Below, one piece after another: positions 19,113-51,533 of a DNA stretch of 64,000 nucleotides; the stretch's first letter is position 1, and each line of letters starts with the position of its first letter. Below the pieces are notes generated by a model, which saw only the letters and a program-made list of their open reading frames with translations, was not told the origin of the DNA and did no database searches. Made by a program: the position numbers and the translations under genes. Source of the stretch: Geobacillus thermoleovorans (lineage in GTDB: Bacteria > Bacillota > Bacilli > Bacillales > Anoxybacillaceae); the NCBI RefSeq assembly GCF_001610955.1, contig NZ_CP014335.1:3047001-3111000 (forward strand), in the 5' to 3' direction.

Positions 19113-21071
19113 TCAGCGGAAGATGGCGCGAAGGCCGTCGATATAAATCGCTCCGGCGTTTTTCCGTCCCGCTTCCGTTTCCATATAACGCACCGGCATC
19201 TCCAGCATGAGCGGAAGCGCGACATCGCTAGGCACAGCGGCTTGCACATATTTCCAACCGGTCCAATCGACATGGCGGGCAAAATCGATCCAGATGCGGC
19301 GCCCGCTTCCATCCCGCAGCTGGGCGCGCAGCCAATGGCCGCTTCCGTCTCCATACACCCACATGCCAATCGCTTGCGGCCGTTTCGAAATCCAAATCGC
19401 TTCCTCCCGACTAGCATAGACGCCGGATGTCCCTGGCATCCCGCGAAAATCATATGAAATTTTCAGCGCCTGCTTTCCTTCTCTCACCTTTTCTGTCGTC
19501 CGCTCGACCGCAGCCCCCACATAGTTGACGCCCGATGCATTCCACTTCGACTCGGCCTCAAAATCATCAAGCACTTCTTCGCTTTCCCCGTTCTCTTGCG
19601 TCTCTTTGTACACAACAAGAAGCGCATTCGCCACCGGACGCGCAAATCCATCAGACGGTTTGTTTTCGACTTTGAGCTGCCCGTTTGGCTGGCGGACGAC
19701 AAATGTCGAAGAACCGCCGCCATCGAGCGTCATCGCATCGACGGCGCCAAGCTCATACATCAGCTTGGCCAGCTCATTCAATGTCATTCCTTGGCTATGG
19801 GCAGGCTGGCGGCCATCGACAACGACGAGCATGACATTTCCGTTCTTGTCAATGCCGACGGCTGTACGCGGATGGACTCCTTCAATCGAAAACGGCTGCA
19901 CTTTTCCATCCGCCACCAACCGGTATCGGCCGCCGAGCGCTTCTTTCACCCCACTCCATTCGGGCTGGTCATACTGAAGGGAAATTTCCACCGCATCCCC
20001 TTCTTTCGCCTGCCGCAAATAGTCGCTCGCCCGGCCATGGCCCGACAACACGAGCTCTCCAGGCTGGAGCGGTTCATCGCCTTGACCGACTACAACTTTC
20101 TTCACCGTTCCGGTGACCGTTCCATTCCCGTTCAACACCCCTTGTACATTCGTCAGCACGACTTCCGTCCCAAGAGCGTTCGTTTTCGTGGAAGCAGCGA
20201 AATACGGGGTGTACAAAATCAACTGATGAGCGCGCCGCGGCTTGTTGATGCCATCGACGGGATATGAGATTCCTTGTCCAATTCGAACGCCAATTTGAAC
20301 ATCTGGGTTTCCAATCATCGGCTTCCCATCAGCGCTGATGCCAAAAATCGTCCGTTCCGCCGCCGGCGTCGTATTTGTTATCACAATTTCCCCACGGTGC
20401 ACCATCAAATCGGTCGGCGAACCATCCTGTTTGAAATAATCGCCGTTCACCGCCGCCAGCACGGTTCCGTCGCGGCCATCGTACCGTTTTGCCTGCTCAA
20501 GCACCGGTTCAATGCCAAGCACTTGATCATTGGACAGCGCCGTCTCAATGACCAGCCTCTCATTCGACGTATCGATGTCAAGCTTGTACACGTGCTGCTT
20601 GCCGCGCGTTCCGACGACTTCCATTTCCTCTTTTTCCACCCCAGAGGCGATGCGCGTCGACACCTCCTTTACCACCGTGCCGACCGCCAACTGCCTCGCT
20701 CCATACCGCCCCGGATTGACAAGCTTCAGCTTCTCCCTCGACGGCGTTTTATACACAACATGTCCTTTGATATTGGTGACGTAATATCCACCGCCAACCC
20801 CGTATTGGCCGCCAAACGCCTCGTCATACGAATACACCCGGTACTGTTCTCCAGGCTGCAACACGCGGACAAACGTCAGCGCCCCGTTTTCCCGTTTCCA
20901 TAGGTTAATCGGTTTCACGATCTCCAATTTTCCAATTTGCCCCTGCACAAGGCGCATGCCTTCCCAGTAGACGACATTCGCTCCGGCATCCGCTTCTGGC
21001 GCTTGCAGCGCCGTCCATGCGGCCAACACCGCCCCGACCCCAATGCGGATGATGTTCTTCGCTTTTCCCAC
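19113..21071 (-). CDS. secreted phosphodiester glycosidase (NAGPA-like) with N-terminal anchor module
   Basis: 652 residues. Signal peptide about 1-29. Residues about 33-118 are the shared surface module (VYWEGMRLVQGQIGKLEIVK, GVGGGYYVTNIKG, YKTPSREKLK). Residues about 210-500 match the phosphodiester-glycosidase (NAGPA) domain: VNGDYF, TAVGIDKNGNVMLVVVDGRQ and the LDGGGSST motif. The C-terminal 140 residues (from VLDDFEAESKWN) look like a jelly-roll carbohydrate-binding domain. The start is GTG with AAGGGG upstream. I infer it cleaves or binds a phosphodiester-linked or exopolysaccharide glycan at the wall. Substrate unknown. It is transcribed alone. Confidence 0.8.
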   Translation of the reverse strand: MGKAKNIIRIGVGAVLAAWTALQAPEADAGANVVYWEGMRLVQGQIGKLEIVKPINLWKRENGALTFVRVLQPGEQYRVYSYDEAFGGQYGVGGGYYVTNIKGHVVYKTPSREKLKLVNPGRYGARQLAVGTVVKEVSTRIASGVEKEEMEVVGTRGKQHVYKLDIDTSNERLVIETALSNDQVLGIEPVLEQAKRYDGRDGTVLAAVNGDYFKQDGSPTDLMVHRGEIVITNTTPAAERTIFGISADGKPMIGNPDVQIGVRIGQGISYPVDGINKPRRAHQLILYTPYFAASTKTNALGTEVVLTNVQGVLNGNGTVTGTVKKVVVGQGDEPLQPGELVLSGHGRASDYLRQAKEGDAVEISLQYDQPEWSGVKEALGGRYRLVADGKVQPFSIEGVHPRTAVGIDKNGNVMLVVVDGRQPAHSQGMTLNELAKLMYELGAVDAMTLDGGGSSTFVVRQPNGQLKVENKPSDGFARPVANALLVVYKETQENGESEEVLDDFEAESKWNASGVNYVGAAVERTTEKVREGKQALKISYDFRGMPGTSGVYASREEAIWISKRPQAIGMWVYGDGSGHWLRAQLRDGSGRRIWIDFARHVDWTGWKYVQAAVPSDVALPLMLEMPVRYMETEAGRKNAGAIYIDGLRAIFR

Positions 21072-21170
21072 TGGTCCCCTTTTCCTCTCTTTCTATCATT
21101 TTGTTGCAATCGATTCTATTATACGACAAACTTCTACAAAAAGGGGGATCTTTTTCCATTTATCTGGTCA

Positions 21171-21199
21171 AAAAAAAAATGTCCCAGCACTGCTGGGAC
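21171..21199 (-). terminator. Rho-independent terminator of the CAP-domain gene
   Basis: Nine-bp perfect stem (GTCCCAGCA with TGCTGGGAC, one-base loop region) followed on the minus strand by nine T. It lies 30 bases after the stop at 21230. Confidence 0.85.
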
Positions 21200-21229
21200 G
21201 CTCTTGAGAAGCGAAAGGATCATCCGCGG

Positions 21230-22462
21230 TCACGGAGCATAAAACTCTTGAGAGTAGTAGGGTTGATGGAATGAATTGAACGCGACCCCGACGCCAAGGC
21301 GGGTAAAGTCCGGGTATAAAAGATTTTGCCGATGCCCGAGCGAGTGCATCCACGCTTCATGGACAAAAATCGCATCGTATTGTCCGTAGGCGATGTTCTC
21401 GCCCGCCACGCGATAAGCGATGCCATGGCGCTTCAGACGGTCAAACGGCGACAATCCTTGCAAGTTCGTATGAGAGAAGTAGTGATGGACCGCCATATCT
21501 TCGCTATGTTCACGGGCGGCCGCCGCCGCCTTCGCATCCCACGCGAGCGCCGGAAGCCCGTGCAAGCGGCGCGCCGCGTTTGCTAAATCAAAAATTTGAT
21601 ATTCATACGCTGTGCGCAGCTCCTCCGTCGTCGTTCCGTAAAACCCGGGCTTTTCATCCTCGAGCGCCCGATTGACGACAAGCACGCCATCCACCCGGTT
21701 GTTGTTGTACCGGTCATAAAAGAAGGTGACGTAGCGGCCGTTGACAAGATAGGTCCCGTATTCGTCATTTTGAATGTCGTAGACGGCATCCTTTTTTTGG
21801 ATGAAGGCGAGCGGCCGGCCGTAGCGCGCTTCCACCACCGTTTTCGCCGTTCCGATGCCCGTTCCTTTTTTCGTTTGGACGATCGGTTGGTTCGTGTACA
21901 TCGCCGCCACCCGATCACGGTCATAGCTCACCATCAAAAAGTTTTTGTAACCGCCTTGATCATACGCCTCCCAATATAGGCCGTAGGCGTTTTTCGTCTT
22001 GCGCTTCGCCGTGCCGTACATCGCTTCGACCTTGGCGCGCGAGTCGCCGATCGCCACCCCGTTCATCGTGACATCCGCCATGTTTGCCTTCGCCTGCTGC
22101 ACGCATAAAGCAGCGGCCAACTTCTCTCTTGACGGCGTTTCATAGCGGACGCGGGCATCGTTCTTGATCCCATATCCTCGGCCGACACCAAAATAGCCGC
22201 CGCCTAGCACGTACACACGATACACCGCACCGCTTGGCAGCGTCTTCACTGCTTTGTTCGACAACCATAGCTCTGTCGGCGCCATCACCGTCAACCGGCC
22301 GATTTGTCCGGGCTTCAGTTCAGCGCCGTCCCACCACACTTTTTCCGTTCCGACAAGCTCCTCGCAATCCTCCGCCTTGACCATTGATGAACTCGGCATC
22401 CAAAGCCATCCGGCCGCAGCCAACAGCATTCCGATTGCCACCGCCTGCACCCATTTCCTCAC
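21230..22462 (-). CDS. CAP-superfamily secreted protein with N-terminal anchor module
   Basis: 410 residues. Signal peptide about 1-30. The shared surface module spans about 41-125 (VWWDGAELKPGQIGRLTVMA, RGYGIKN, RYETPSREKL). A CAP-associated N-terminal domain follows (about 137-270, MNGVAIGDSRAKVEAMYGT; repeated as GIGTAKTVVEARYGRP). The CAP domain occupies about 283-405 with the expected HSEDMA, YFSHTNLQGLSPFDRL and GENIAYG motifs, as in YkwD-like proteins. CAP domains bind lipids or wall components; the exact activity is unknown. GTG start with AAGGAG 9 bases upstream. Single gene with its own terminator. Confidence 0.88.
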   Translation of the reverse strand: MRKWVQAVAIGMLLAAAGWLWMPSSSMVKAEDCEELVGTEKVWWDGAELKPGQIGRLTVMAPTELWLSNKAVKTLPSGAVYRVYVLGGGYFGVGRGYGIKNDARVRYETPSREKLAAALCVQQAKANMADVTMNGVAIGDSRAKVEAMYGTAKRKTKNAYGLYWEAYDQGGYKNFLMVSYDRDRVAAMYTNQPIVQTKKGTGIGTAKTVVEARYGRPLAFIQKKDAVYDIQNDEYGTYLVNGRYVTFFYDRYNNNRVDGVLVVNRALEDEKPGFYGTTTEELRTAYEYQIFDLANAARRLHGLPALAWDAKAAAAAREHSEDMAVHHYFSHTNLQGLSPFDRLKRHGIAYRVAGENIAYGQYDAIFVHEAWMHSLGHRQNLLYPDFTRLGVGVAFNSFHQPYYSQEFYAP

Positions 22463-22682: not shown

Positions 22683-23426
22683 ATGAAGATCATGAAAAAA
22701 TTTCTAGCAGTCTCAGCGCTAAGCGCCGGAATCCTTCTGTCGCCATTTCACGCCCACGATGCGCAAGCAAAAGTTTGGTGGAATGGCATGGAATTGGTGC
22801 AGGGACAGATCGGCAAATTAACTGTTTTGAAAGATACCGAGCTTTATAAGTTACAAGGAGAGAAGAAAGTTTACATAAAAACGTTAAAAGCCGGCGGAGT
22901 CTATCGCATTTACACGTTTAAACCTGGCATGTTAGGTTTAGGCGGCGGATATTATGTCGATCGCGATGCCCGGGTAAAATACGAAACTCCTTCCAAAGCA
23001 AAACTCAATCAAGTTAAAATGGAACAGCTGTTCCGTGGAGTAAAACTCGGCATGTCCACTTCTCAAGTCAAGAAGTTGGAAACCGCAAAATTTATCCTAC
23101 AAGAAAATATAGACGGCGGCCAAGCCTGGGTCTATTCGACTTCTCTTTTCGGATATCATACGCTGCTCGTCTATGGATTTGAGAACGGAAAGCTTGCCTT
23201 CTACGGCTACTCGTTCGATGCCGGCCAGGAGTATACAAGCGATCAGCTCACAGCGATTTACAACAATCTGAAACAACAGCTCATCACGCTATTTGGAAAC
23301 CAGTATGAACAGTCCGATTCTGGCCAAGACTACCCGCCTGCACTCGCATTTCACAAAGACGGCCTTGTGATTGCCCTTTCCTATGATGCGGACGGGTTGG
23401 CGGTTACGGTCACGAGTGAACAATAA
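22683..23426 (+). CDS. small secreted protein with N-terminal anchor module
   Basis: 247 residues. Signal peptide about 1-28 (ending HDAQAK). The shared surface module spans about 30-115 (VWWNGMELVQGQIGKLTVLK, GLGGGYYVDRD, KYETPSKAKL). The C-terminal part (about 118-245) begins FRGVKLGMSTSQVKKLE, resembling the CAP-associated or DUF4309-like fold seen also in the CAP protein next door, but without a CAP domain. RBS GAGAGGAG 8 bases before the ATG. It is on the plus strand between two minus-strand relatives and is less GC-rich than they are. No enzyme motif is seen; I infer a surface-exposed binding protein. Confidence 0.75.
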   Translation: MKIMKKFLAVSALSAGILLSPFHAHDAQAKVWWNGMELVQGQIGKLTVLKDTELYKLQGEKKVYIKTLKAGGVYRIYTFKPGMLGLGGGYYVDRDARVKYETPSKAKLNQVKMEQLFRGVKLGMSTSQVKKLETAKFILQENIDGGQAWVYSTSLFGYHTLLVYGFENGKLAFYGYSFDAGQEYTSDQLTAIYNNLKQQLITLFGNQYEQSDSGQDYPPALAFHKDGLVIALSYDADGLAVTVTSEQ

Positions 23427-23477: not shown

Positions 23478-26400
23478 TTACTCCCCATTCACCAACTTCA
23501 ACTTCTCCTTTGACGGCGTTTCATAGCGGATGTGCGTGTCAATGTCTGTTACGTAATACCCGCCGCCGACCGCGTACTGCCCGCCGAAGCGCGCATCATA
23601 CCCGTAGACGCGGTACACTTCCCCAGGCTGTAAGATGCGGACGAACACAAGGCGCCCATCCTTCGTCCGTTTCCATAGATTGATCGGCTTTTGCACCGTC
23701 AAGCGGCCGATTTGCCCTTTTTTCAGCTCCACGCCATCCCAGTACACTTTTTTCACTTGGCCTGGAGGAGTGGTTGGCTTTCTCGGTTTCTCTTTTGGTT
23801 TCGATGGAGACGGTTTTTGCGGCGGTGCTGATGGAGGTGCTCCGTTTCCCGGCGGAGCTGTGCCGCCCGGCGGAACGCTCCCCCCAGGGGATGTGCCATC
23901 CGATGGACCACCGTTGCCCGGAGAGGTGCCGTTGCCTGGTGTTGTCCCTCCGTCATGGGACGGCGTTTCGCTGCCCGGCCAACCGCTTCCTGGAGAATCG
24001 CCGTTGCTTGGCGGCGTTGTCAACTTCCCTTCGCGCAATTGCTTCGTTTCTAAATTCAGCACGTAATCTTTTGTGTTTTTCGCAATCGCTCCGCCGTCGT
24101 TGTTGAAAATGGCTGTTTTGCTTTCGGCCGATGGTTCGATATGGATCAACACTTCTTTTTGATGGCTGGCCGGCGCAAACGTGTACGAGAATGCCATCCG
24201 GCCATCAATCGGCACCCGCTCGCCATTGATCGTCAAAACACCGTTTTTAATGGCATTGCCCTTGATCGTCACTTGACTTCCTTGTTTTTGCACCTCTTCG
24301 ATGACGACCGGCATATCGATCCAGCGCAAAATGCGGTCTTGCACAATCATCGTATTGTTTCCTTCATTGTGGACCGTCACTTTCAAGTCGGTGCCAATCG
24401 TCCCATAGCCGTAGTAGCTCACGTCATCATCGTTGTCGTCCTCACGCGTATGGTCGGCCAACCCCTCTTGATCCCACGATCCGCCTTTCACATACTTATA
24501 GGTGATCGTTTCCCCTTCCTGCACCTCGACGGTAAATTGCCAATCGGGCGTCACCGCACCGTTGCGCGACATCTCCCAGGCCCCTGTGTTCCAGCCGTTC
24601 AAGCTGTTCGGAATCGTAATTCGGGCATCCAACGGTGTGTAATCCGGCGCTCTCACTTTAAAAATCACTTTCACCATCACAATGTCCGGCGTCACCTTGA
24701 CCGTGTTTGACGCCACAACATTGCCGGCGCGGTCATACAACTTGACAACATACGTGTACTCGGTGCCGTTTTCGACATCGTAGTCTGTAAATGAATCGCC
24801 GATCGAAGTGGTTGTATGCACGATATCACCGTTGCGCTCGATGGCTAACAAATAAGCATCCCCATCTTTTTTCCCAACAAACGTCCATGATAAATTCACT
24901 TGTCCCGATTCAACCGCAGGCTGCCGCAGCTCGATGGCGTCTGCTGGCGCTATTTGGTCGCTGTTGTCTGCCGCAAACGTCACTTGCTTCTCTTCTGTAT
25001 ACATCCACTCCTCGCCAAGGTTGGTCGTCAGCGCATAACGATACGTATACGTCCCTGCGGCGAGCGGAGTGAAGGCAGCTCGGAACACGTTGGCGTCGCC
25101 GTCTTGTCCTTGGTAAGCCGCTCTGTATTCTTTCCATGTTTCGTCATGCGGGCCTTTCACTTGCAACACCGCTTGCAACCCATCAGCTGCTCCTTTGCTT
25201 GTCACATTGTCGATGTTGACATGGACATCCACTTGCTGCGGCTTTGACAAATCCAGTGTGGCATCGCTTAACGTTGTCACGAACTGGACATTGTCGCTCG
25301 TCAGCGGGTAATGAGGAACGACGCGATTCGTTTCGACCTTCGGTGATTCATTCCCGTTTTCATCGACCGCCGCAACGGCAAAGTAATAGGCTGTTCCGTT
25401 CGTCAACGAACCGATCGTGGCCGAAGTTGTTTCCGTCTCTTGCACCATCGTATAACCGGCACCTTTTAACGTGGACTCGTAAATTCGGTATCTCGATGCA
25501 TTTCCTTCCCACGTTAACGTCACGCAGCCATCCGAAGCGCTCGCCTGCAAATTGCTGACTGCTGCCGGCATTTCCGCCGTCACCGTCCCAAACATCATCC
25601 GTCCATCCAGGGCCGGAATCGTGACCGTCAACGTTCCGCCAGCGACCGTAGCTTCCCCGCCATCATGCAACTCATCCGTAAGCACGGTGCCGTTCGGAAG
25701 CAACGAAGCGACGTCAAGCGCCACCGTCTTGTCCTCATTGCCGCGGTTGATGGCAATGAGCGCCGCTTCACGCCCGTATTGGCGGGCAAATACGTATACA
25801 TCCCCTTGCGCATACACCGTCTTGATGTCGCCATGGGCCAACAACGATTGATGGTGCTGGCGAATGTGCCCCACTTTCTGATAATGGGACAACAGATTTT
25901 GATCTTCTTTGCCCCACGGATACGTGCGGCGGTTGTCTGGGTCTTTTGAGCCTGTTACTCCCGCTTCATCGCCGTAATAAATCGTCGGCGCTCCCGGGTA
26001 TCCCATCTGCAAAATCACCGCCAGCTTGAGCCGCTTTTTCCCAAGTTCCTCATTATAATTCGGATCAAGCTCCGCCCGCTCGGATGAATCCGTTCCGTTC
26101 CCAAGCAGAAAGACCGCCCGCGCCGTGTCATGCGAACCGATTAAGTTCATCAGCGCATAAAACGCTTCACTTGGGTAGTCTTCCCTTATGGCCGTCAGCC
26201 GCTTGTCCGCCTCTTCTGCATTTCCGTTTTTCAAAAAGTCAAGCACCGCCCCGCGGAACCGGTAGTTCATCACGGAATCGTACTGGTCGCCTAGAAAATA
26301 TTTCGATGCGTCATCCCAAATTTCCCCTAAAATGAGCGGCTGCTCCCCCTCTTTTAACGTCGGACCGCGGCCGTACGACCCTTGAAGCAATTCTTGGCGA

Positions 26401-28445: not shown

Positions 28446-28504
28446 CCCCCGCTCCCTTCTCCTTTGTTTGGCCAACTTCCTTCTCTCCTTTCCTTTTTAT
28501 ATTC

Positions 28505-30563: not shown

Positions 30564-32891
30564 TTACCATCCATTTGCTTGCTTCAACTTCTCCTTTGAC
30601 GGCGTTTCATAGCGGATGTGCGTGTCGATGTCGGTCACGTAATACCCGCCGCCGACCGCGTACTGCCCGCCGAAGCGCGCATCATACCCGTAGACGCGGT
30701 ACACTTCCCCAGGCTGTAAGATGCGGACGAACACAAGGCGCCCATCCTTCGTCCGTTTCCATAGATTGATCGGCTTTTGCACCGTCAAGCGGCCGATTTG
30801 CCCTTTTTTCAGCTCCACGCCATCCCAGTACACTTTTTTCACTTGGCCTGGAGGAGTGGTTGGCTTCTCCGGCTGCTTTGGCGGGTTGGGCTTTTCTTCC
30901 TTCCAAAGCGGCAAGGCAAATTCATATTGGGCAAATCCGCTCGGCAAGGCGGTGACATAGCGGATGCTGCCGTCGTGCGGCAAGTATTTTTGCGCTTCCG
31001 GCGACGATTCAAACGTGACGGTCACCGGCGCTTTCCCTTTCACTGGCGCAAACCGCCAGTTGCCATCCGCTGACGGGTTGATCGTTCCGTTTTCCCGAAT
31101 GTAATCGATGATCACTTGCCGGTTTTCATCCGGCGCAGCCAAAATCGTGTTTTTCCCGCCCGGATTGATGATCCGGTTTGTCGTCGCCCGATAGTTGTTC
31201 GTTGCGACGATAAATTCCATGTTCGGCGTCACTGGCTTGCCTTCGAATTTCAAGTTTTTAATCCGGTTCGCATTCGGATTGATCACATTTTGGTTTTTGT
31301 CGTATTTCGCCGGCTCGGTCACATCGATCTCGTACGTCACTCCATCAATAATGTCGAAGTTGTACGTCGGGAAGTCGTTGTTCACAAGCGGCTGAACGTC
31401 TGTCTTGTTCGGGTCGATTTGGTTGAATTGCCCCGCCGACCACTCAAGCCATTCTTTCAACTCGGCTCCCGTAATTTTCAACGCATACACCGTGTTCGGA
31501 TACAAGTACAAATCGGCGACGTTTTTAATGGCGATTTCCCCTGCCGGGATGTCGGTATAATAGCTCGCCCCGCCGCGTCCGCCGGCTTTGAACGGAGCGC
31601 CGGCCGACAGCACCGGAAGGCCTTCATATTTCGTCCCTTTCAACATCTTTTCGACATACCATTTTTGCGCATTCGTGACGATTTGCACGGACGGATCGTC
31701 TTTGATAAGCGCAAAATAGCTGTTGATCGGGCTCGTTGTTTTTCCAACCGGGCTGCGGACGTACTGAATCGTCGCTTCATGTTCCGCTTGGATCGCCTGC
31801 TCCACGTCCAGGTCGCTGTCGACAAGCGGCGTTTTCGTCGCCTTGTCATACACTGGACGGAGTTGGGCTTTCGCTTGCGTCACTTTCCATTTTCCGTCGA
31901 TTTGCTCGACCGTCAAGTCGATCACGCCGAGCGTATCGCCCCATGAACCCGGCATCGTCACTGGAACACCGTTGATCGTGCCGGTTTCATTGTTGATTCC
32001 GTTTCCGTCTGGAAAATCTGGTGTCGTGCCTGGAAGGGCCGGGAATTTTTTATGCTGGTGGCCGGCCAACACGGCGTCGACCCCCGGAATTTGCGTCAAA
32101 TAATACGATGCGTTTTCCATATTCGGGCTGTTTCCGCCGGTCTCAATGCCCGAGTGCGATAGCACAACGATCAAATCGGCCCCTTCCGCTTTCATTTTTG
32201 GAATATACTTTTGCGCCGACTGCACAATGTCTTTCGCAATCACTTTCCCTTGCAAATTCGCTTTGTCCCAATCCATAATTTGCGGCGGCACAAAGCCGAT
32301 GACGCCGATCTTCAGCGTATGCTTCTCCCCGTCTTCATCAACGACTTCTTTCGCTAAAATTTGATACGGCGTGAAATAGTTGACATCGTTATCCGGATTT
32401 TGGTCATGATCGTCACGGTACACGTTCGCATTCACGATCGGCAGCTTGGCATCGTCATACACTTCATTGAGGAAATCCAAGCCATAGTTGAACTCATGGT
32501 TCCCAACCGTCGCCGCATCGTACTTCAACAAATGCAACAGTTTCACCGCTGGATGCACTTCGCCGTCTTGCAGCGGCTTCACTTTCGCCACATAGTCGCC
32601 AAGCGGCGTTCCTTGAATCAAATCCCCGTTGTCAAACAGAAGCGTATTCGGCTGCTCAGCGCGCGCCTGCTCGATCAAACGCGCCGTCTTCGACAACCCA
32701 AACTCATTCGTCGGACTATCTTTGAAATAATCGTAGTTGACGAGATTCATATGTACGTCCGTCGTCTCTAAAATGCGCAGCTTGACGACATCTCGGTCTT
32801 CCGCGCCCGCTGCGGTCGGCAACACAGCCGGAGCAAGCAGCCCCAACGCCAACACCACGCTCGCCGCCGCGTATTTCTTCCGTTTTTTCAA
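30564..32891 (-). CDS. secreted 2',3'-cyclic-nucleotide phosphodiesterase / 5'-nucleotidase family protein with C-terminal anchor module
   Basis: 775 residues. Signal peptide about 1-29. The calcineurin-like metallophosphoesterase domain shows the metal-binding motifs TTDVHMN near residue 45, FDNGDLIQG near 86, GNHEFNYG near 131, LSHSG near 243 and AGHQHK near 280. The 5'-nucleotidase C-terminal domain follows (about 360-640). A linker of Pro/Lys then leads to the shared anchor module (about 690-772), almost identical in DNA to that of the amylopullulanase. The TTG start has GGGGG 7 bases upstream. Family members free phosphate and nucleosides from extracellular nucleotides. The anchor suggests it stays on the cell surface. 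Confidence 0.9.
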   Translation of the reverse strand: MKKRKKYAAASVVLALGLLAPAVLPTAAGAEDRDVVKLRILETTDVHMNLVNYDYFKDSPTNEFGLSKTARLIEQARAEQPNTLLFDNGDLIQGTPLGDYVAKVKPLQDGEVHPAVKLLHLLKYDAATVGNHEFNYGLDFLNEVYDDAKLPIVNANVYRDDHDQNPDNDVNYFTPYQILAKEVVDEDGEKHTLKIGVIGFVPPQIMDWDKANLQGKVIAKDIVQSAQKYIPKMKAEGADLIVVLSHSGIETGGNSPNMENASYYLTQIPGVDAVLAGHQHKKFPALPGTTPDFPDGNGINNETGTINGVPVTMPGSWGDTLGVIDLTVEQIDGKWKVTQAKAQLRPVYDKATKTPLVDSDLDVEQAIQAEHEATIQYVRSPVGKTTSPINSYFALIKDDPSVQIVTNAQKWYVEKMLKGTKYEGLPVLSAGAPFKAGGRGGASYYTDIPAGEIAIKNVADLYLYPNTVYALKITGAELKEWLEWSAGQFNQIDPNKTDVQPLVNNDFPTYNFDIIDGVTYEIDVTEPAKYDKNQNVINPNANRIKNLKFEGKPVTPNMEFIVATNNYRATTNRIINPGGKNTILAAPDENRQVIIDYIRENGTINPSADGNWRFAPVKGKAPVTVTFESSPEAQKYLPHDGSIRYVTALPSGFAQYEFALPLWKEEKPNPPKQPEKPTTPPGQVKKVYWDGVELKKGQIGRLTVQKPINLWKRTKDGRLVFVRILQPGEVYRVYGYDARFGGQYAVGGGYYVTDIDTHIRYETPSKEKLKQANGW
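30582..30866 (-). repeat. 285-bp near-identical repeat encoding the anchor module (copy 2)
   Basis: Partner of 23496..23780, same orientation, 7086 bases away. Recombination between the two direct copies would delete amyS, the amylase promoter region and most of both flanking genes, while leaving one fused gene in frame. Confidence 0.92.
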
Positions 32892-37110: not shown

Positions 37111-37248
37111 TCATAAAAGTCATTCTGTGGTAAGATGTTTAATGGACTCCCTCCCTCCTGTTTTATGGATGTTGGTCATCACCATCATAGCAGGGAGAGA
37201 GTCCTTTTGCATGAGATCAGCTTTTTCCTACCGCGCTTCGCTTGGTAC

Positions 37249-42341: not shown

Positions 42342-42470
42342 TGTAAATTATCACTTTATTTCCGCACAAAAAAGACTCTTTTTTGCACATTCCTTCGGAA
42401 TATCCCTCTCCCCCTTTCCGAAAGAATGTGCTAAATTTTTTGTGAATTATTTCGGAATGGGACATGGGTG
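42342..42470. repeat. left end repeats of the Tn7/Mu-like element
   Basis: Three or four copies of a TTATTTCGGAAT / GCACATTCTTTCGG-type motif in alternating orientation between the terminal TGTAAATTA and the first gene. They match the motifs at 46741..46879. Confidence 0.65.
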
Positions 42471-42493
42471 ATTTCCAGAGGGGGGACGAGGAC

Positions 42494-43057: not shown

Positions 43058-43579
43058 TTTTACTTATATCCCCTTATATGGAATCATTTATAGATTCCAC
43101 AAACCTTTCCTCTCGACGGTCGGGGGAATGATCCGATAGGATAGAGACAGGATGGACCGATAAGGTCCTAGAATGGGATGAACGAAGGAGGAGATCGAAA
43201 TGAATGAGTCGATGAGACAGGAGATCGCTTTATTTCGGTATGGATTGATCGCTCCATTGGTGAATGGACAAGTCGATCCAAAAACGTACTTGAAGGAAGT
43301 AGCGGAACGGATCCATCAAGTTCCCCACCATGGAGAGAAACGCATCGCCGCCAAAACGATCCTCGACTGGTGCACGCAGTACAAAAAAGGGGGCTTTGAG
43401 GCGCTGAAGCCGAAACGACGGTCGGACCGTGGCCATTCCCGGAGGCTGTCACCTGAAGAAGAGGATCACATTTTAGCCCTGAGAAAAAAACACCCCCACA
43501 TGCCCTGATATTATCCCTCTAGTGTAGACAGTTGGGAAAATGCCCATACTGTCAGTAAAAACACTGGAGGGATTTGTTT

Positions 43580-43906
43580 ATGTTCGAGACCAAGCAAACA
43601 CCGAAAGGGAAGACCACTTATTCCGTGGAGTTTAAATGGAGGGCTGTCCAGATGTACATCGAAGAAGGATGGGGATATAAGCGGATATGCCAAGAGTTAG
43701 GGATTCCCTGCACGAAAACGATCAGACTTTGGGTAAAACGTTACCATGAACATGGTCTAAAAGGGCTCGAAGAACGGCGCGGGACATCCAAGTCTCCATT
43801 CAAGGGAAGGCCTCGAAAAAAAGAGTGCAGTTTAGAGGAAGAGAATCGAAGACTGAAAGCAGAGAATGATTATTTAAAAAAGTTACGAGAGCTGGCAAGG
43901 AGGTGA
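43580..43906 (+). CDS. IS3-family OrfA
   Basis: 108 residues from the ATG at 43580 (GGAGGG 8 bases upstream). N-terminal helix-turn-helix (YSVEFKWRAVQMYIEEGWGY) and C-terminal leucine-zipper-like helix (EEENRRLKAENDYLKKLREL). It binds the element ends. The stop overlaps the OrfB GTG (43903..43906). Confidence 0.93.
   Translation: MFETKQTPKGKTTYSVEFKWRAVQMYIEEGWGYKRICQELGIPCTKTIRLWVKRYHEHGLKGLEERRGTSKSPFKGRPRKKECSLEEENRRLKAENDYLKKLRELARR
43876..43882 (+). other. programmed -1 frameshift site
   Basis: A AAA AAG in the OrfA zero frame, 22 bases before the OrfA stop. Slipping by -1 enters the OrfB frame, which is open across the junction, giving the OrfAB transposase as known for IS3-family elements. 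Confidence 0.8.
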
Positions 43907-44766
43907 AACCGAAAGAGCGGTTCTCGATCATTCAGGAGTTATCCAACACCTATCCGATTGCCTGGCTATGCCAACTGGCCGGTGTGTCAAGAAGTGGATA
44001 CTATCGATGGATGAACCAGCAGGGAATCGTCACAGAGAAGCAAAAGGAAAATGAACAAATCAAACAAATGATCCTCGAATGCCATCAAAAGGTCAATGGG
44101 ATCTATGGATACTACCGCGTGAAAGCATGGATAAAACGAAATTATGGGAAGACCGTGAATCATAAGCGAGTGTACCGACTGATGAAAGAGTTGGGGGTTC
44201 AGGCCAAAATCCGTCGAAAAAAGCCGAAGTATAAAGCGGGAAAGGAGAATATCGTAGCGTCGAACGTGTTAAACCGTGATTTTGTGGCCACTGCAGCCAA
44301 CCAAAAATGGGTGACGGATATTACCTATGTGCCATTTCAAGGAACCTATTTGTATCTGTCTGCTATTAAAGATCTGTACAACAATGAAATCATTGCGTAT
44401 CGCATCAGTCGTTCGAATGACTTAAAATTGGTGATCGAAACTGTCAAGGATGCCATCAAAAAACGGGATGCGCGAGGAGTCCTTCTCCATAGCGATCAAG
44501 GCTCCCAGTACACATCCCGCCAGTACCATCAACTGCTGAAGGCTCATCATATCATTCCTAGTATGTCCAGAAGAGGAAACTGTTTAGACAATGCCTGCAT
44601 GGAAAATTTTTTCGGGCATTTGAAATCGGAAATGGTGGACCTTCCCACCTTTGAAACGGAAGAGGAAATGATCGAGGCGATCGATCAGTACATGTATTTT
44701 TATAATTATGAACGGTGCCAGAAAAAACTAGACTACCTCAGCCCAGTGGAATACCGAATTGCCTAA
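43903..44766 (+). CDS. IS3-family OrfB, DDE transposase domain
   Basis: 287 residues. DDE integrase core: Asp in KWVTDITYV near residue 145, Asp in LLHSDQGSQY near 205, Glu in NCLDNACMENFFGHLKSE near 240. An HTH_21-type segment (YGYYRVKAWIKRNYG) precedes it. The start drawn is GTG, but the active product is more likely the OrfAB fusion made by frameshifting. The frame is undamaged, so the element may be mobile. Confidence 0.93.
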   Translation: MKPKERFSIIQELSNTYPIAWLCQLAGVSRSGYYRWMNQQGIVTEKQKENEQIKQMILECHQKVNGIYGYYRVKAWIKRNYGKTVNHKRVYRLMKELGVQAKIRRKKPKYKAGKENIVASNVLNRDFVATAANQKWVTDITYVPFQGTYLYLSAIKDLYNNEIIAYRISRSNDLKLVIETVKDAIKKRDARGVLLHSDQGSQYTSRQYHQLLKAHHIIPSMSRRGNCLDNACMENFFGHLKSEMVDLPTFETEEEMIEAIDQYMYFYNYERCQKKLDYLSPVEYRIA

Positions 44767-45882
44767 GCAGCCTAGCAGACGAACGGCTGAGAATGTCTCC
44801 TTCTTCAGCTTGCCAACGATGAAGTGGAATGAAGGAGACGTTGTCAAGTGCTTTCCTTGACAACGTTTCCTCATTCCACTATCCTAACAAGCAGCTGAAG
44901 AAGGTGGGTATTTTTCACACTGTCTACTTGACAGGGATATGTTCACCCGTGACGGTGTTTTACCAACACCTTATCGAGCAGGGGGAAATCCAATCCATCT
45001 CTTATTTCACTATATACCGACTTTTAAAAAAATACAACCTCGTGGGGAAAGAAATTTTACCGATTCCTGAACGAAAACGATTCGCGTACGATCAGGTCAA
45101 TGAGCTCTGGCAAGGTGATTTGTCCCATGGCCCGTTGATTCGCGTGAATGGCAAAACGCAAAAAACGTTTTTGATTGCCTATATCGATGACTGCTCGCGG
45201 GTCGTGCCGTACGCTCAGTTTTTCTCTTCCGAGAAATTTGACGGGTTGCGGATCGTAACCAAGGAAGCGCTGCTTCGATACGGAAAGCCGAAGCGAATTT
45301 ACTCGGATAACGGCAAGATTTATCGGGCGGAACCCTTGCAGTACGCCTGCGCGGAGTTAGGGATCACCTTGATCCATACCCAGCCGTACGATCCGCAAAG
45401 CAAAGGGAAAATCGAACGATTTTTCCGCACCGTACAGACGCGGTTTTACCCGTTGCTCGAAATGAATTCACCGAAGTCGCTCGAAGAGCTAAACGAGCGA
45501 TTTTGGAAGTGGTTGGAGGAAGATTACCATCGAAAACCGCATGCCTCGTTGAACGGGAAGACGCCACATGAAGTGTTTCAATCGCAAGTCCATTTGGTGT
45601 CGTTCGTCGACGATTCGGATTGGCTCGACTCGATCTTTTTGAAACGCGAATACCGTAAAGTGAAGGCCGATGGTACGGTCACGTTGAACAAGCAGCTGTA
45701 TGAAGTTCCGCCCCGGTTCATCGGACAATCGATCGAACTCCGTTATGATGAACAAGGCGTGTATGTGTACGAAGACGGTCAACGGGTCGCCGAAGCGGTC
45801 CTTGTTCGCTTCGAGGACAATGCCTATGTGAAACGCCATCGGTCACCGTTTGCGGCGGTTCCGGTAGAGGGAGGCGAAAACG

Positions 45883-46683
45883 ATGTATAAAACGTTTTAT
45901 TCCCTTTCCCGAGAGCCGTTTTCGAAGGAGACGAATCCACCAGAGGCTTATCAAGGGGCCTCGTATCAAGAGGCCCTCGCCGCTTTGGACTACGTGAAAC
46001 GAACAAGAGGGATCGGGCTATTGATCGGTGAACCAGGGGCCGGCAAGACATTCGCCCTTCGGGCGTTTAAGGAATCCCTGAATCCGTCACTGTATCACGT
46101 CGTTTATTTTCCATTGTCAACGGGAAGCGTGATGGACTTTTATCGCGGCCTTGCCTTCGGGCTCGGGGAAGAGCCGAAATACCGCAAGGTCGACTTGTTT
46201 TATCAAATCCAACAAGGGATCGAGCGCTTGTATCATGAACAACGGGTAACGTCAGTGTTCATCCTCGATGAAATGCATTTAGCGAAGGATGCCTTTCTGC
46301 AGGATATCGCGATCCTGTTCAACTTTCACATGGACTCAACAAATCCGTTTGTCTTGATTTTGGCGGGGCTGCCCCATTTACAGGCAAAACTACGGTTGAA
46401 TCAACACCGTCCGCTTCACCAACGAATCATCATGCGATACCAGATGGGGCCTCTTGATAAGGAAGAAGTGGTAGGATATATCGAACACCGCCTGAAACAG
46501 GCGGGGGCGAAACACCCGATTTTTACCCCAGCTGCCTTAGAAGCGATCGCCCTGCAGTCGCAGGGGTGGCCGCGGATCATCAACAACCTCGCCACCACTT
46601 GCCTGTTATACGGCGCTCAATTAAAAAAACATATGATTGACGAAGACATTGTGCGTATGGCAGCCGAAGAAATGGGGTACTGA
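45883..46683 (+). CDS. TniB/TnsC-like AAA+ ATPase (ExeA-type)
   Basis: 266 residues. It begins MYKTFYSLSREPFSKETNPP, the typical start of ExeA/TniB ATPases. Walker A GEPGAGKT at residues 49-56, Walker B FILDEMH with Asp129-Glu130, a sensor region (ILAGLPHLQAKLRLNQ) and C-terminal winged part (WPRIINNLATTCLLYG). Such proteins act as the transposition regulator that links the transposase to target DNA. The gene starts 8 bases before the end of the transposase gene. Intact. Confidence 0.88.
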   Translation: MYKTFYSLSREPFSKETNPPEAYQGASYQEALAALDYVKRTRGIGLLIGEPGAGKTFALRAFKESLNPSLYHVVYFPLSTGSVMDFYRGLAFGLGEEPKYRKVDLFYQIQQGIERLYHEQRVTSVFILDEMHLAKDAFLQDIAILFNFHMDSTNPFVLILAGLPHLQAKLRLNQHRPLHQRIIMRYQMGPLDKEEVVGYIEHRLKQAGAKHPIFTPAALEAIALQSQGWPRIINNLATTCLLYGAQLKKHMIDEDIVRMAAEEMGY

Positions 46684-46740
46684 CACAGCAGGGGCTGATC
46701 GGCCCCTGTTATGTTTCATCCCGATCCATCCTCATTCTAG

Positions 46741-46879
46741 TTAATCATCCGAAATAATGTGCAAATGTTCGGAAATAATCTGCAAAACCTGGAATAATTC
46801 GCAAAGATTTTGCACATTATTTCCGAATCCGTCCGAAATAATTTGAAAAAGGGATTCTGAAATAATGTGCTAATTTACA
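46741..46879. repeat. right end repeats of the Tn7/Mu-like element
   Basis: Five copies of a motif close to CCGAAATAATGTGCAAA in both orientations, spaced about 20-35 bases, ending at the terminal inverted repeat. The array is denser than at the left end, as in Tn7-type elements, where the two ends are asymmetric. Confidence 0.75.
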
Positions 46880-46925
46880 ATTGTCCTTACAAACCAATCC
46901 ATGTGTAACATCTTCTCGTCTCCTC

Positions 46926-47435
46926 TCAAATATATCCTTTTTCTTTCAGCGACAAATACCGGTCAGGGCAAACAATCAAATGGTCCAGCACATCGATGCC
47001 AACGATTCTTCCAGCCTCTACTAACCGTTTCGTTACCTCAATGTCTTCCCTTGATGGCTCACAATGACCGCTGGGATGATTATGGGCTACGATGATGGAA
47101 GCCGAGTTGGAGAGAATGGCAGCCTTCATCACCTCCCTCGGATGCACGATGCTAGCGTTCAGACTTCCAACATGGCAAACGTTGATGGCAGTCGGCTGGT
47201 TTTTCGTGTCAAGGCAGACAACGACAAACTTCTCACGGTCGGCTTCCACAAGAAACGGCTTCAGTAGCTTGTACGCGTCTTCCGGCGACTTGATTTGTCG
47301 CTCCTTGTACAGCACGCTAGACTCCCGAACGAGCTTCAGGCTTACGATGTTGACGCGCTTCGCTGGCTGCTTGGCAGATACCTCTCTTTCTAGCAACTCT
47401 AGCTGATGGTGGTTGATGGTTTGATACTTGCTCAT
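46926..47435 (-). CDS. RadC-like JAB-domain protein
   Basis: 169 residues. C-terminal JAB/MPN-type metal motif: E in the GSLNASIVHPREV region, HNHPSGHCEPSREDIE (HxHPSGxxxxSxxD) near residue 115-130. It lacks the N-terminal helix-hairpin-helix domain of full-length RadC. Such short RadC proteins are common on mobile elements; the role is unproven despite the name. RBS AGGAGAG precedes the ATG. It sits at the right border of the transposon cluster. Confidence 0.85.
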   Translation of the reverse strand: MSKYQTINHHQLELLEREVSAKQPAKRVNIVSLKLVRESSVLYKERQIKSPEDAYKLLKPFLVEADREKFVVVCLDTKNQPTAINVCHVGSLNASIVHPREVMKAAILSNSASIIVAHNHPSGHCEPSREDIEVTKRLVEAGRIVGIDVLDHLIVCPDRYLSLKEKGYI

Positions 47436-47738: not shown

Positions 47739-50381
47739 TTATTTAGAAACAACGCCATCTTTAACTTTGTTGCCGTTAGCATCAACTAGGTTAGCTGATT
47801 TAAATTCAACAGTAATGCTATCAGATAAATTGAAGTCAGCAGAAGTTGTAACAGTCAGCTTACCATTTGCAGCTGAAACTGAAGCAGCTTTGTCTTCAAC
47901 GCCGTTAATCTTAACTGTTACACCAGTAACGCTTCCAGCTGCTGCATCTTTAATCGCTTCTGAGAAGTCAACTGTGAAAGTATTGCTATCAACTAAAGTT
48001 ATTTTAGTAGCAACAGGAGCTACACTTTCTTTTAATGGTACAAGAACAGTGGCTTTACCATCTTTTAAAGTATTTCCATTTGTATCAACTACATTTTTAA
48101 TTTCAAGCATATAGCTTCCGTTTGCTACGATAGAGCCTGCTGGTAAAGTAATTCTAACCTTCTTAGTTCCATCTACAAATTGAAGTTGAGTTCCTGCAGG
48201 TAGTGCTGCTCCACCTAGTTTATAGTTAGCTGCATTTAAAGCAGATGATGTGACATCAGTTGCATATTCTACTGTGAATACATTATTGTTATTAGGATCG
48301 ACAACAACTGGATTTGCAGCCAATACTAATGTAGCAGATGGCTGTTGTGCAGGAGCTTGATAATCAGCTGTATTGAAGTTAATAGTTAAATCATCAGCGA
48401 TTTTGTTTCCTGATAAATCAGCAACAGAATTTCCTGCTAGTTTAAATGAATAGCTAGAATTTTTGTCTAAATCTACAGAAATAGCAATAGTATTTGACTC
48501 AGTTCCTTCGATTTTGCCATTTCCATCTACATCTACACCAGAAGCAACATTAGTTAATTTTATAGGAGTTGCAGAAGTATAAAGGATACCGTTTTTAGAA
48601 GTAAGAGTGAAATCACCGTTAACTACTACTGGCTCATTGAATGTTAAGTAAACAACATCAGTATCATCTGTCTTAGCTGTGTCATCTGCTACAAGAAGTT
48701 TAGAAGAAACAGATACTAAAGATGGAGCAGTTTTGTCAGCAACTAAAGTAGCTCCAACAGAATAAGCTTCTCCAGCATTACCAGCTAAATCTTTATAAGA
48801 TTCTACTTTGACAGTAGTATTAACAAAAGCTTTTGTTCCAAGGACAGACTTTGCATCAAAAGTAAACTTAGTTTTATCATTAGCATCTTTTTCAGCATCT
48901 GTTAATAAGAACTCAGTAGTGCCAACAGTAACTTTTGCATACGCATCTAGAGTTCCGTCATTGTTAAAGTCTTGTTTGCTTAACTCTTCAGAGAAGTCAA
49001 CAGTTACCTTTGTTCCATTAACTGAAACAGCAACAGTTGGTTTTGTATTATCAACAACTGGCTTTTCAACAGTAAAGTTTAGAACAATAGGATTTGCAGT
49101 GTTTCCAGCAAAGTCTTTCGCTCCAACAATATCAACTCTGTAGGATTTCTCAGCTTCTAATCCTGTGATTGTTAAAGTATTACCGTTTAGAGTGTAGCTT
49201 CCACTCGTTAATTCAACACCATTTAAGCTGACAGTTCCTTCACTTTGTAGAGGTTCTGCAAAAGTAATAACTGCTGTTGTCCCTTTTGCTTGTACGGAAG
49301 TAACAGCCGGTGCTTCTGTATCAGCAAAAGTTAACAATTGATTGAACTCAGCAGTTTTAACGTTAGCATCTGCTTTAGTTGGGATAGGGAAAACAGTTAA
49401 TTTCGCATTGGAAACTTTAAGTTCATCAGCAGTTGTCAAAGTAACTGTTTTTCCATCTTCAGAAAGAACAGCGCTAGTAAAAGTTTCACCTTCTAATTTA
49501 TAGTTTGAAGTCTTTTCAGCTTCAGTTTTATCAACAGCTTTGTTGAACTTAACGACTAATTCTCTAGCGTTAATCGCACTTACACTCTCAACCTTCGGCG
49601 TCAATGCCGCTTCATACGCCGCATTGGCGTCTTGTGCTGCTTTTTGCAGTTCAGCTTTGAACGCATCGGTTACTTTCGATACGTATTGGTTGACTTGGTC
49701 AAGCGCAGCTTTCGCTTTGTCCAAGTTGCCGGCTTTGACGGCGTCTTGCGCTTCACGAGCTTTCATGGCAACGGTGATGTCGTAGATCAAGCTGTCGCGC
49801 AATGCTTGAGCATCGGCTTTGAACGTCGAACGGAGGAGTTCGCGCGTCGTTTGGCCGTATACGCGATCAAGGATGACCGTGCGCGTTTTGAGCTCGTACG
49901 AAATTTTGTGGTAGAGCTCTTCTGCTTTTTTCAGATCTTTCGCATCGACGGCTGCTTTGAGTTCTTGACGCATCGCGTCTAATTTTGTCGCATAGTTGTA
50001 AGCGTCGATGTACGTAGCCACGCGCGCTTCGCCCGATTTCGGGTTGGCTTTGAATACATACGTTTCGTATGTAGCTTGCAAGTCAGCCAAATACGCGTCT
50101 TTTTTCGCACCGCCGGCTTTGTTCACAACAGCGACAGCGTTCGCATACGCTTGTTTTGCTTTGTTGTAGGCTGCGTATACATCGTTAATGTCCGGGAATT
50201 GGCCCGTTTCCGTTACCGTGTGGCTGTACGTATAGTACGCTTGCTTCATTTGCGCTTTCGCTTGGCTGACGACCGTCGCAACGTCCGTGGCTGCTTGGGA
50301 AGCATGCGGGTTGGCTGCGACGAAAGCGCTCGCTGCTACAGCGCTGGCTGTGGCGAGTTTGACTGCTTTCTTTTTGTCCAT
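47739..50381 (-). CDS. S-layer protein (SbsC/SgsE/SbsD type)
   Basis: 880 residues from the ATG at 50379..50381; MDKKKAVKLATASAVAASAF is the signal peptide start typical of this family. After cleavage at about residue 30 an all-helical domain (about 31-257) corresponds to the SbsC domain that binds the secondary cell wall polymer: TYSHTVTETGQFPDINDVY, ARVATYIDAYNYATKLD, KTRTVILDRVYG. The rest (about 262-880) is a series of Ig-like domains (ELVVKFNKAVDKTEAEKTSN; repeated TVDFSE motifs) forming the lattice. The DNA changes from GC-rich to AT-rich near the domain border at about 49575. Very strong terminator and long structured leader fit an abundant mRNA. Export may use SecA2. Confidence 0.95.
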   Translation of the reverse strand: MDKKKAVKLATASAVAASAFVAANPHASQAATDVATVVSQAKAQMKQAYYTYSHTVTETGQFPDINDVYAAYNKAKQAYANAVAVVNKAGGAKKDAYLADLQATYETYVFKANPKSGEARVATYIDAYNYATKLDAMRQELKAAVDAKDLKKAEELYHKISYELKTRTVILDRVYGQTTRELLRSTFKADAQALRDSLIYDITVAMKAREAQDAVKAGNLDKAKAALDQVNQYVSKVTDAFKAELQKAAQDANAAYEAALTPKVESVSAINARELVVKFNKAVDKTEAEKTSNYKLEGETFTSAVLSEDGKTVTLTTADELKVSNAKLTVFPIPTKADANVKTAEFNQLLTFADTEAPAVTSVQAKGTTAVITFAEPLQSEGTVSLNGVELTSGSYTLNGNTLTITGLEAEKSYRVDIVGAKDFAGNTANPIVLNFTVEKPVVDNTKPTVAVSVNGTKVTVDFSEELSKQDFNNDGTLDAYAKVTVGTTEFLLTDAEKDANDKTKFTFDAKSVLGTKAFVNTTVKVESYKDLAGNAGEAYSVGATLVADKTAPSLVSVSSKLLVADDTAKTDDTDVVYLTFNEPVVVNGDFTLTSKNGILYTSATPIKLTNVASGVDVDGNGKIEGTESNTIAISVDLDKNSSYSFKLAGNSVADLSGNKIADDLTINFNTADYQAPAQQPSATLVLAANPVVVDPNNNNVFTVEYATDVTSSALNAANYKLGGAALPAGTQLQFVDGTKKVRITLPAGSIVANGSYMLEIKNVVDTNGNTLKDGKATVLVPLKESVAPVATKITLVDSNTFTVDFSEAIKDAAAGSVTGVTVKINGVEDKAASVSAANGKLTVTTSADFNLSDSITVEFKSANLVDANGNKVKDGVVSK

Positions 50382-50420
50382 AAAGCCCAAAATCCCCCTT
50401 CGTTTTTATGAAACTTTAGA

Positions 50421-50460
50421 GCAATGGGTACTAAACGTTTCCGTTTAGTAGATTCATTGC
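50421..50460 (-). promoter_or_regulatory. stable hairpin in the long S-layer mRNA leader
   Basis: On the minus strand GCAATG pairs with CATTGC and ACTAAACG pairs with CGTTTAGT around a GAAA tetraloop, 40 bases before the start codon. A TATTAT -10-like sequence lies near 50575..50583, giving a leader near 190 bases; the stretch 50382..50753 holds no gene. The fold may protect the message or tune translation. Confidence 0.6.
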
Positions 50461-50753
50461 CTAAAAGGTGCTAACATCAACCAATATCATCCTTGACGGC
50501 TAGATGCTGGGCTGATTAGAAAGCCTAGCATCTGTTGCTAGCACTTGAGCATAATTCCTCAATGCTCCACGTCTCCTATAATAATACATTTTTCTTCTAA
50601 ATTCTAGTCCTAAATACAAATTTTTTAGAGAATATGCCTTTGAAATTATTGCCATCGATGGCGACATTGATATGAATATGCCTGTAACAGAAATTTAGAA
50701 CGATATTTTGGCAGTTTGATGGTTTTGGTTGGCAAACATTTTGTGCAAAAACA

Positions 50754-51533
50754 TCAATCGTTTTTCTTCACCGTGACGTCCATCGGTTGGCCAAGCGTCA
50801 TTTTGACGACGTCATAGCGGTCATTCAAGTACAAATCGAGAAAGCGGAACTGTCCTGCGAATTGTTCCGGGCTGTTCGTGATGGAAAATTGCAGCTGCAT
50901 TGCGTAATCGCCGCTGTTGGCGAGCTGTTCGGCGATTTTTTCGATCTCTTCCTTCGGCACGTTGTACGCTTTTAAGTAAGAGATCGAGTCGGCGATCGCT
51001 TCGGCGTTGTCGTTGAAGAAAATGGAGAGCGTCACCGTTGCGCCGTCGATGCGGCCTTCAAGCGGCAATGACATATTTTGGCCGTATAAGTACCAGCCGA
51101 ACAGACGATTTCCTTTTTGCCGCTCAATGACGAACGGAACGGATTCATTTCCTGCCTGAAGAATGTATTGCCCTTTCAATGAGCGGGCGACAAGGGCGAG
51201 AAGTTCGTCTTTTGTGAACGGCACGTATTGGATGGCGTCCCCTTGTTTGGCATACAGTCCACCGCCGAGGCTGTAATAGACGGCGCCGCCTGCCCGTTTT
51301 TGGCTGTAGACGCGATACTCGCGCCCTTGTTTCACCGTCATGGCGGTCTGCCATGCCGCTCCGTTCAGGCGGTATAGAGGCGTGTCGCGCAAAATGGCGA
51401 CTTTGCCGATCATGCCTTGTTTCCATTGGACTTGCCCCCATTGGACGGCGGCGTCAACTGTTTGTCCATTTCCTCCGAGGGCGATGGCGGCGGCGAGGCA
51501 GATGGCGGCTGCCATTTGGGATGCATGTTTCAT
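50754..51533 (-). CDS. secreted protein with N-terminal anchor-like module
   Basis: 259 residues from the ATG at 51531..51533 (GAGGAGG 9 bases upstream). Signal peptide about 1-27. Residues about 30-120 are a diverged copy of the shared module (VQWGQVQWKQGMIGKVAIL, QGREYRVYSQK, YSLGGGLYAKQGDAIQY). The C-terminal half (about 125-259) is a mixed alpha/beta region beginning ARSLKGQYILQAGNESVPFV; it is not recognised. It is upstream of the S-layer gene in the same orientation, about 370 bases away, and probably separate. Inferred to be a lattice- or wall-associated protein. Confidence 0.7.
   Translation of the reverse strand: MKHASQMAAAICLAAAIALGGNGQTVDAAVQWGQVQWKQGMIGKVAILRDTPLYRLNGAAWQTAMTVKQGREYRVYSQKRAGGAVYYSLGGGLYAKQGDAIQYVPFTKDELLALVARSLKGQYILQAGNESVPFVIERQKGNRLFGWYLYGQNMSLPLEGRIDGATVTLSIFFNDNAEAIADSISYLKAYNVPKEEIEKIAEQLANSGDYAMQLQFSITNSPEQFAGQFRFLDLYLNDRYDVVKMTLGQPMDVTVKKND

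Follow-up and report, generated by a model that had tools for sequence, protein, structure and literature searches.

The closest described systems anchor surface proteins to wall polymers or peptidoglycan through dedicated terminal domains. The S-layer protein SbsC is reported to bind an acidic polymer of N-acetylglucosamine (GlcNAc), glucose, and a diacetamido-mannosamine uronic acid (PMC8559796). A positively charged S-layer domain is described as binding a negatively charged polymer (PMC1262761), and the polymer of wild-type Geobacillus stearothermophilus is reported to be acidic (also PMC2571106). Here we analyze a stretch of 64,000 nucleotides (nt) of Geobacillus thermoleovorans (NZ_CP014335.1, positions 3,047,001 to 3,111,000), called the window, in which all positions below are counted. 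It encodes six secreted proteins that carry a common module of 84 to 94 residues, and this module is probably a detachable, noncovalent wall anchor that binds the acidic polymer made by a neighboring gene cluster and retains enzymes beneath or within the S-layer. In the portions of the open-licence literature that were consulted, no description of the module was found.

Six copies of one module in the window

A first-pass annotation of this stretch had proposed that six secreted proteins share a module of about 85 residues, four of them at the N terminus and two at the C terminus. A profile built from the six copies bore out both the number and the positions, as follows.

20712..20981, minus strand: N-terminal module of the NAGPA phosphodiester glycosidase protein 19113-21071 (partner by Pfam); profile E 6.9e-42
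22103..22348, minus strand: N-terminal module of the CAP protein 21230-22462 (Pfam CAP_assoc_N and CAP); profile E 7.4e-35
22764..23021, plus strand: N-terminal module of the 247-amino-acid (aa) protein 22683-23426; profile E 7.1e-40
23484..23756, minus strand: C-terminal module of the amylopullulanase 23478-28475; profile E 2.3e-43; structure model with a predicted local distance difference test score (pLDDT) of 94.7
30570..30842, minus strand: C-terminal module of the cyclic-nucleotide phosphodiesterase/nucleotidase 30564-32891 (NCBIfam NF006938 on the partner); profile E 3.5e-43
51186..51455, minus strand: diverged N-terminal module of the 268-aa protein 50754-51560; profile E 4.3e-36; own model with pLDDT 89.9

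When the 3.5-Mb genome was searched with the profile, six strong matches were obtained (E 2e-43 to 7e-35), all inside the window, and the next match had an E value of 0.9. A single-sequence search returned the same six as the only matches at E ≤ 1, the diverged copy at E 6.5e-5. These values show that the resemblance is not due to chance, and a chance repeat was therefore ruled out as the source of the module. AmyS was matched in neither search, as the annotation had stated. The translations of all six genes agreed with the annotation. Five of the module genes lie on the minus strand; only 22683-23426 is on the plus strand. The four N-terminal copies sit right behind an apparent signal peptide, judged by eye. 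Identity to the amylopullulanase copy ranged from 27 to 97% across the aligned modules, and 15 columns were invariant (V4, W6, G14, I16, G17, L27, G45, Y48, R49, Y51, G59, G64, G66, Y78, and L86). The two C-terminal modules, on the amylopullulanase and on the nucleotidase, were 98.6% identical in DNA over 289 bp, linker included, suggesting that one was recently copied or that gene conversion took place.

The partners are of different kinds. The glycosidase, CAP protein, starch enzyme, and nucleotidase named in the annotation were all supported by Pfam or NCBIfam: alpha-amylase and X25 pullulanase domains, together with the names given to its relatives, mark 23478-28475 as an amylopullulanase, and 30564-32891 is a 2',3'-cyclic nucleotide phosphodiesterase/nucleotidase by NF006938. 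The label "binding protein" for 22683-23426 had no Pfam support, and the partner parts of this protein and of 50754-51560 matched no family above the cut-off in Pfam or NCBIfam. On the module itself, no Pfam or NCBIfam model scored above its cut-off in any of the six proteins. The absence of a named family thus held at the level of curated models; the predicted fold, described below, resembles known domains.

Predicted fold and charge

Structure prediction, which had been proposed as a check, gave a confident small beta-barrel for the amylopullulanase module, and the barrel does not look new. The top VIA-align matches of the model were mostly wall-binding SH3b domains, including the teichoic-acid-binding motif of Lactobacillus SlpA. 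The predicted barrel superposed on the SlpA motifs 7qeh and 8alu at 1.8 to 2.7 Å over 59 residues, and the model of the diverged copy superposed on SlpA motifs at 1.8 to 1.9 Å over 59 residues. Foldseek returned nothing at E ≤ 0.001; its first match was the cell-wall-binding domain of LysPBC5 (0.048), followed by 7qeh (0.089), with CRP/PrfA chains close behind. A single-sequence search of the PDB found only unrelated proteins, at E 0.14 or worse, and the best match in a profile search was the SlpA domain 7qeh at E 0.13, which is suggestive only. A relative with two modules, P0048, ties the module to Pfam SlpA as an apparent intermediate at the sequence level: the Pfam match overlaps its second module, and the whole protein scores 48.5 bits, the cut-off being 23. 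The module looks like a distant relative of the SlpA/SH3b-like domains, as judged from the models.

The modules are basic. Among 41 modules, the median isoelectric point was 9.8 and the median charge was +7.8, with a positive charge in 39; the partner parts (n = 133) carried +0.3 charge per 90 residues.

Position and partners in relatives

Position was classed as N-terminal when the module started within 90 residues of the start and as C-terminal when it lay no more than 12 residues from the end. Distinct complete open reading frames (ORFs) of at least 180 aa were counted from stop to stop, so that ORFs cut by the end of a locus, such as those of long enzymes, were excluded. In the collected loci, 120 such ORFs had the module at the N terminus (80), at the C terminus (38, of which at least 5 are leftover 3' ends of an amylopullulanase or a nucleotidase gene), or at both ends (2); none had it internally. 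Short ORFs with a near-identical end module in loci L009, L019, and L020 (genomes G008, G013, and G003) are such remnants of the amylopullulanase, and those in L007 and L008 (G001 and G006) are remnants of the nucleotidase; similar short ORFs in L012 and L013 gave no match. The 109 database relatives were split into 80 N-terminal, 18 C-terminal, 8 with the module at both ends, and 3 internal, and clearly internal modules include those of tape-measure proteins. Two or more modules were found in 7 of these 109 proteins.

The partners recovered by Pfam scans of 20 representatives include NlpC/P60, glucosaminidase, M23, PdaC, GDSL lipase, trypsin, NAGPA, 5'-nucleotidase, CAP, YkuD (L,D-transpeptidase), transglutaminase, and bacterial Ig domains. 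Excalibur, lamin-tail, SLT, and Ltp proteins were further partners among the database relatives.

Modules on lysins and phage proteins

Genome G011 has two extra modules about 0.8 Mb away, in what looks like a prophage. One of them lies at the C terminus of an Amidase_2 endolysin, and the other belongs to a tape-measure-like protein that also has a Phage_lysozyme2 (tail-lysozyme) domain. Relatives of the endolysin copy were collected by a search that limited protein lengths. Among the matches listed, 119 could be classed by position: 117 had the module at the C terminus, 1 at both ends, and 1 at the N terminus, and 6 of the 119 had two or more modules. A peptidoglycan-hydrolase Pfam domain was present in 109 of 120 among the matches listed (130 were found), comprising 55 Amidase_2, 27 Amidase_3, 11 M15, 9 M23, and 7 others. 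The C-terminal domain of an endolysin is typically described as its wall-binding part (PMC8868475).

Two of the 50,697 records in the phage collection had the module, each from a Psychrobacillus phage: it ends an amidase beside a holin in PVJ1 and lies in a tape-measure protein in Perkons. Two queries against viral contigs each found a single locus, the first with an N-terminal module in a protein without an assigned kind and the second with an amidase-like lysin, judged by eye.

Exchange of anchors on the amylopullulanase

In genome G004, which is of the SLH type, the amylopullulanase is 92% identical to the window protein over residues 62 to 1513, but at its end SLH repeats (E 5e-32) stand in place of the linker and module of the window protein. 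The amylopullulanases of G007 (83 to 84%) and G018 (74%) are likewise SLH-ended; that of G007 is divided between two ORFs, 843 and 1097 aa long (L123:8440-15930). The enzyme was found in these 3 of the 8 sampled SLH-type genomes and in none of the fetched stretches of G009, G024, G030, G031, and G034. No orthologue of the CAP protein, of 22683-23426, or of 50754-51560 was present in the 20 fetched stretches in which a swap was sought for the other partners. A NAGPA relative in G034 (34 to 39%) showed no SLH by eye; no Pfam scan was made of it. The enzyme of Anoxybacillus SK3-4 is described with SLH domains near its end and with cell-bound activity, the larger part of the activity being outside (PMC3709733).

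A protein of G. stearothermophilus ATCC 12980 labeled as an amylopullulanase (P0120) carries a 99% identical module. Its computed mass is 183.9 kDa, or 179.5 kDa without the first 39 residues. The cell-associated amylase of ATCC 12980 is said to have a mass of 184 kDa. Reportedly (Egelseer 1996), this 184-kDa amylase stays cell bound in an S-layer-deficient variant, which would speak against attachment to the S-layer protein. It is likely, but unproven, that the module-bearing amylopullulanase is the high-molecular-mass amylase (HMMA). HMMA, for which three binding regions are reported (Mol Microbiol 2009), may have the module as one of them. It is stated to be missing from six Geobacillus strains, of which four have the amylopullulanase (PMC4428132); this conflicts with equating the two enzymes.

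Distribution and linkage to a wall-polymer cluster

Three other features of the window are needed for the comparison of genomes.

975..12419, minus strand: wall-polymer gene cluster of the secondary cell-wall polymer type (Pfam)
8111..9175, minus strand: MocA-family oxidoreductase, called WbpB-like, used as a marker of polymer type (Pfam; distribution in 65 genomes)
47739..50390, minus strand: SbsC-type S-layer protein; SbsC_C and spectrin-like domains at its N terminus (Pfam)

The cluster encodes a member of the UDP-GlcNAc 2-epimerase family, a UDP-sugar dehydrogenase, the MocA oxidoreductase, a DegT aminotransferase, and a hexapeptide acyltransferase, together with a glycosyltransferase, a GT4 protein, a flippase, and a Wzz-like protein (below the Pfam cut-off). 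This enzyme set presumably serves the synthesis of UDP-2,3-diacetamido-mannuronate, which we take to be the sugar of the SbsC-binding polymer.

Profile searches of other genomes found relatives in the genus, the family, and the order. Ten of the 14 genomes of the genus had a match at E ≤ 0.01, nine of them with 5 to 8 matches (fragments counted); the single weak match in G002 is read as SH3_3 by Pfam (4e-9). Of the 41 family genomes, 18 matched, in 3 of 9 genera. In an even draw of the order, 44 of 397 genomes and 24 of 135 genera matched at E ≤ 1e-4, and in a draw of the phylum only 2 of 398 genomes did so at E ≤ 1e-5, both belonging to the same order. Named relatives include Cytobacillus, Neobacillus, Mesobacillus, Bacillus methanolicus, Rossellomorea, Robertmurraya, and Psychrobacillus.

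Two or more modules were present in 16 of the 41 family genomes. All 16 had SbsC_C (E < 1e-15), compared with 0 of the other 25, five of which gave weak SbsC_C matches (E 1e-5 to 1e-7); for the genus alone, the module/SbsC table reads 9, 0, 0, and 5. The WbpB-like gene (≥63% identity) was found in 16/16 versus 3/25. The reverse pattern was seen for at least 10 SLH matches (0/16 versus 21/25) and for CsaB at E < 1e-45 (0/16 versus 22/25, 5 of the 22 being below the curated cut-off). Six of the 16 multi-module genomes had 2 to 5 SLH matches, and the genome studied here had none at E ≤ 0.001. Outside the family, 24 of the 36 matching genomes were tested, 12 with weak matches being left out. The eight whose best module had E < 1e-25 all had the WbpB-like gene, and six had SbsC_C; G295 and G392 have strong modules and the WbpB-like gene with no PF18058 match. 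Over all genomes tested, the gene was present in 24 of 25 with strong modules, two of these without SbsC. The only strong-module genome without it was G024, an SLH-rich genome with one copy on an M23 peptidase.

The module genes are also physically linked to this marker. In eight of the 16 family genomes, modules and the WbpB-like gene share a contig no shorter than 1.7 Mb, and there 47 of 49 module matches lay within 90 kb of the gene; the remaining 2 were the prophage copies. Outside the family, the distance can be larger; G086, for example, has a module at about 108 kb and G188 one at 137 kb. A look for polymer genes within 6 kb of the modules in the named loci found only SecA2 (four loci) and one aminotransferase of 32% identity.

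What the module may bind

A role in wall attachment is supported by the terminal position next to unrelated partners, the C-terminal use on lysins, the predicted fold, and the charge, and also by the absence of multi-copy modules from the SLH-rich and the CsaB genomes of the family and by the anchor swap on one and the same enzyme. In the mechanism that we favor, exported proteins would be anchored by a basic, SH3b/SlpA-like beta-barrel at one of their ends. The barrel would bind the acidic secondary cell-wall polymer that the neighboring cluster makes and that contains 2,3-diacetamido-mannuronic acid; we infer that this binding is electrostatic and that it holds the six proteins to the wall, under the S-layer or inside it. 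The module would thereby serve ancillary proteins as SLH repeats do where the polymer is pyruvylated.

The annotation had left the target open between wall polymer and S-layer. If the module bound the SbsC-type S-layer protein, the enzymes would ride on the lattice, and the full co-occurrence with SbsC in the family, together with an S-layer gene within 30 kb of all six module genes, would fit. The polymer is the better candidate because G295 and G392 have its marker without PF18058 and because lysins, like the tail-lysozyme protein, need a wall-bound target; we regard binding to the S-layer as improbable. Binding to peptidoglycan itself, in the manner of the lysostaphin SH3b domain, is unlikely too, if a little less so. 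It would agree with the modeled likeness to peptidoglycan-binding SH3b domains and with the many peptidoglycan hydrolases fused to the module, but within one genus multi-copy modules track SbsC and oppose SLH and CsaB, the module is linked to polymer genes, and it is strongly basic. A catalytic accessory or folding subdomain without an anchoring role is very hard to credit: the module is short and usually sits on larger proteins, as such a subdomain might, but its partner enzymes are unrelated, it occurs at either end, and SLH repeats replace it in orthologous amylopullulanases.

Several observations weigh against a polymer-binding anchor. The co-occurrence tables are inflated by shared ancestry. 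A strong module is missing in 5 of the 29 genomes with the WbpB-like gene; G002, G005, and G037 have the gene without two modules, and in G370 and G371, which have both the gene and SbsC_C, the modules are weak. Modules occur with neither marker in G201, G226, G273, G314, and G372, and weaker ones occur in the SLH-rich genomes G051, G177, G294, G353, G388, and G409, so the wider module family is not tied to one polymer.

More tentatively, Bacillales may possess two exchangeable anchor codes: CsaB and a pyruvylated polymer with SLH domains, versus a diacetamido-mannuronate polymer with SbsC helical domains for the lattice and the module for all other proteins. When the polymer changes, the terminal domains of surface proteins and phage endolysins would be swapped, and the module would then act as a lectin that has the SH3b fold and is specific for the polymer. 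We put this somewhat short of an even chance, since a few SLH proteins coexist with modules.

Geobacillus strains without SLH are classic S-layer models, yet, as far as a limited literature search shows, work on the retention of their exoenzymes has centered on one amylase. With a defined module, wall-bound proteins could be predicted from sequence in many Bacillales, and the joint evolution of anchors and wall polymers could be tested. The module would also give heat-stable tags for surface display and binding domains for thermophile lysins.

Other genes in the window

A second, SecA2-like SecA of 797 aa (12681-15074) is encoded in the interval from the polymer cluster to the module genes, and SecA2 matches were also found near module genes in L080, L082, L083, and L084. 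An S41 protease with a PDZ domain adjoins a 246-aa SbsC_C protein, the second SbsC-type protein, at 16180-18364. The two PF18058 matches of the genome are 47739-50390 and 17624-18364, neither of which is a module protein. The region 34476-47435, between the nucleotidase and the S-layer gene, is rich in insertion sequences (two IS21 IstB genes, rve transposases, UPF0236, and RadC). A sortase gene (55489-56118) lies near the surface-protein region.

Comparison with known systems

SlpA/SLAP (PF03217), the teichoic-acid-binding motif of Lactobacillus S-layer proteins, shares with the module a basic character, a superposable predicted barrel, and, through P0048, a match above the Pfam cut-off. The window copies stay below the gathering score of 23 bits: only the diverged copy (P0006) matches, with 14.5 bits (16.9 for the module alone), which is the sole related Pfam signal among the window proteins. 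PF03217 matched 3 of 41 modules at E ≤ 1, and YxY..KxxN, described as the phosphate-binding motif of SlpA (PMC11181022), was found in 1 of 41 with a spacing of 2 to 14 residues allowed. In contrast to SlpA, the module is mostly single copy, with a conserved W ... GQIG start and YETPSxxKL end, and the neighboring genes point to a uronic-acid polymer rather than teichoic acid. The SH3b wall-binding domains of LysPBC5, lysostaphin, ALE-1, and PlyPy differ from it in that many module partners are not lysins and its distribution tracks the polymer and S-layer type; SH3_3 (PF08239) matched 0 of 41 modules at E ≤ 1.

The annotation had set the module apart from SLH and from the SbsC helical domain, rightly so: the six proteins gave no SLH or PF18058 match, and membership in either family was ruled out. 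The N-terminal helical polymer-binding domain of SbsC (PF18058/PF22360) occurs in the same genomes, and its reported ligand is the acidic polymer that the module would bind (PMC8559796), but it anchors the S-layer protein itself. Like SLH (PF00395), the module would be a reusable, noncovalent terminal anchor, and SLH takes its place on the same amylopullulanase, whereas the SLH-rich family genomes are without multi-copy modules. The module is best read as a new subfamily of a known kind of wall-binding domain, in the role of SLH.

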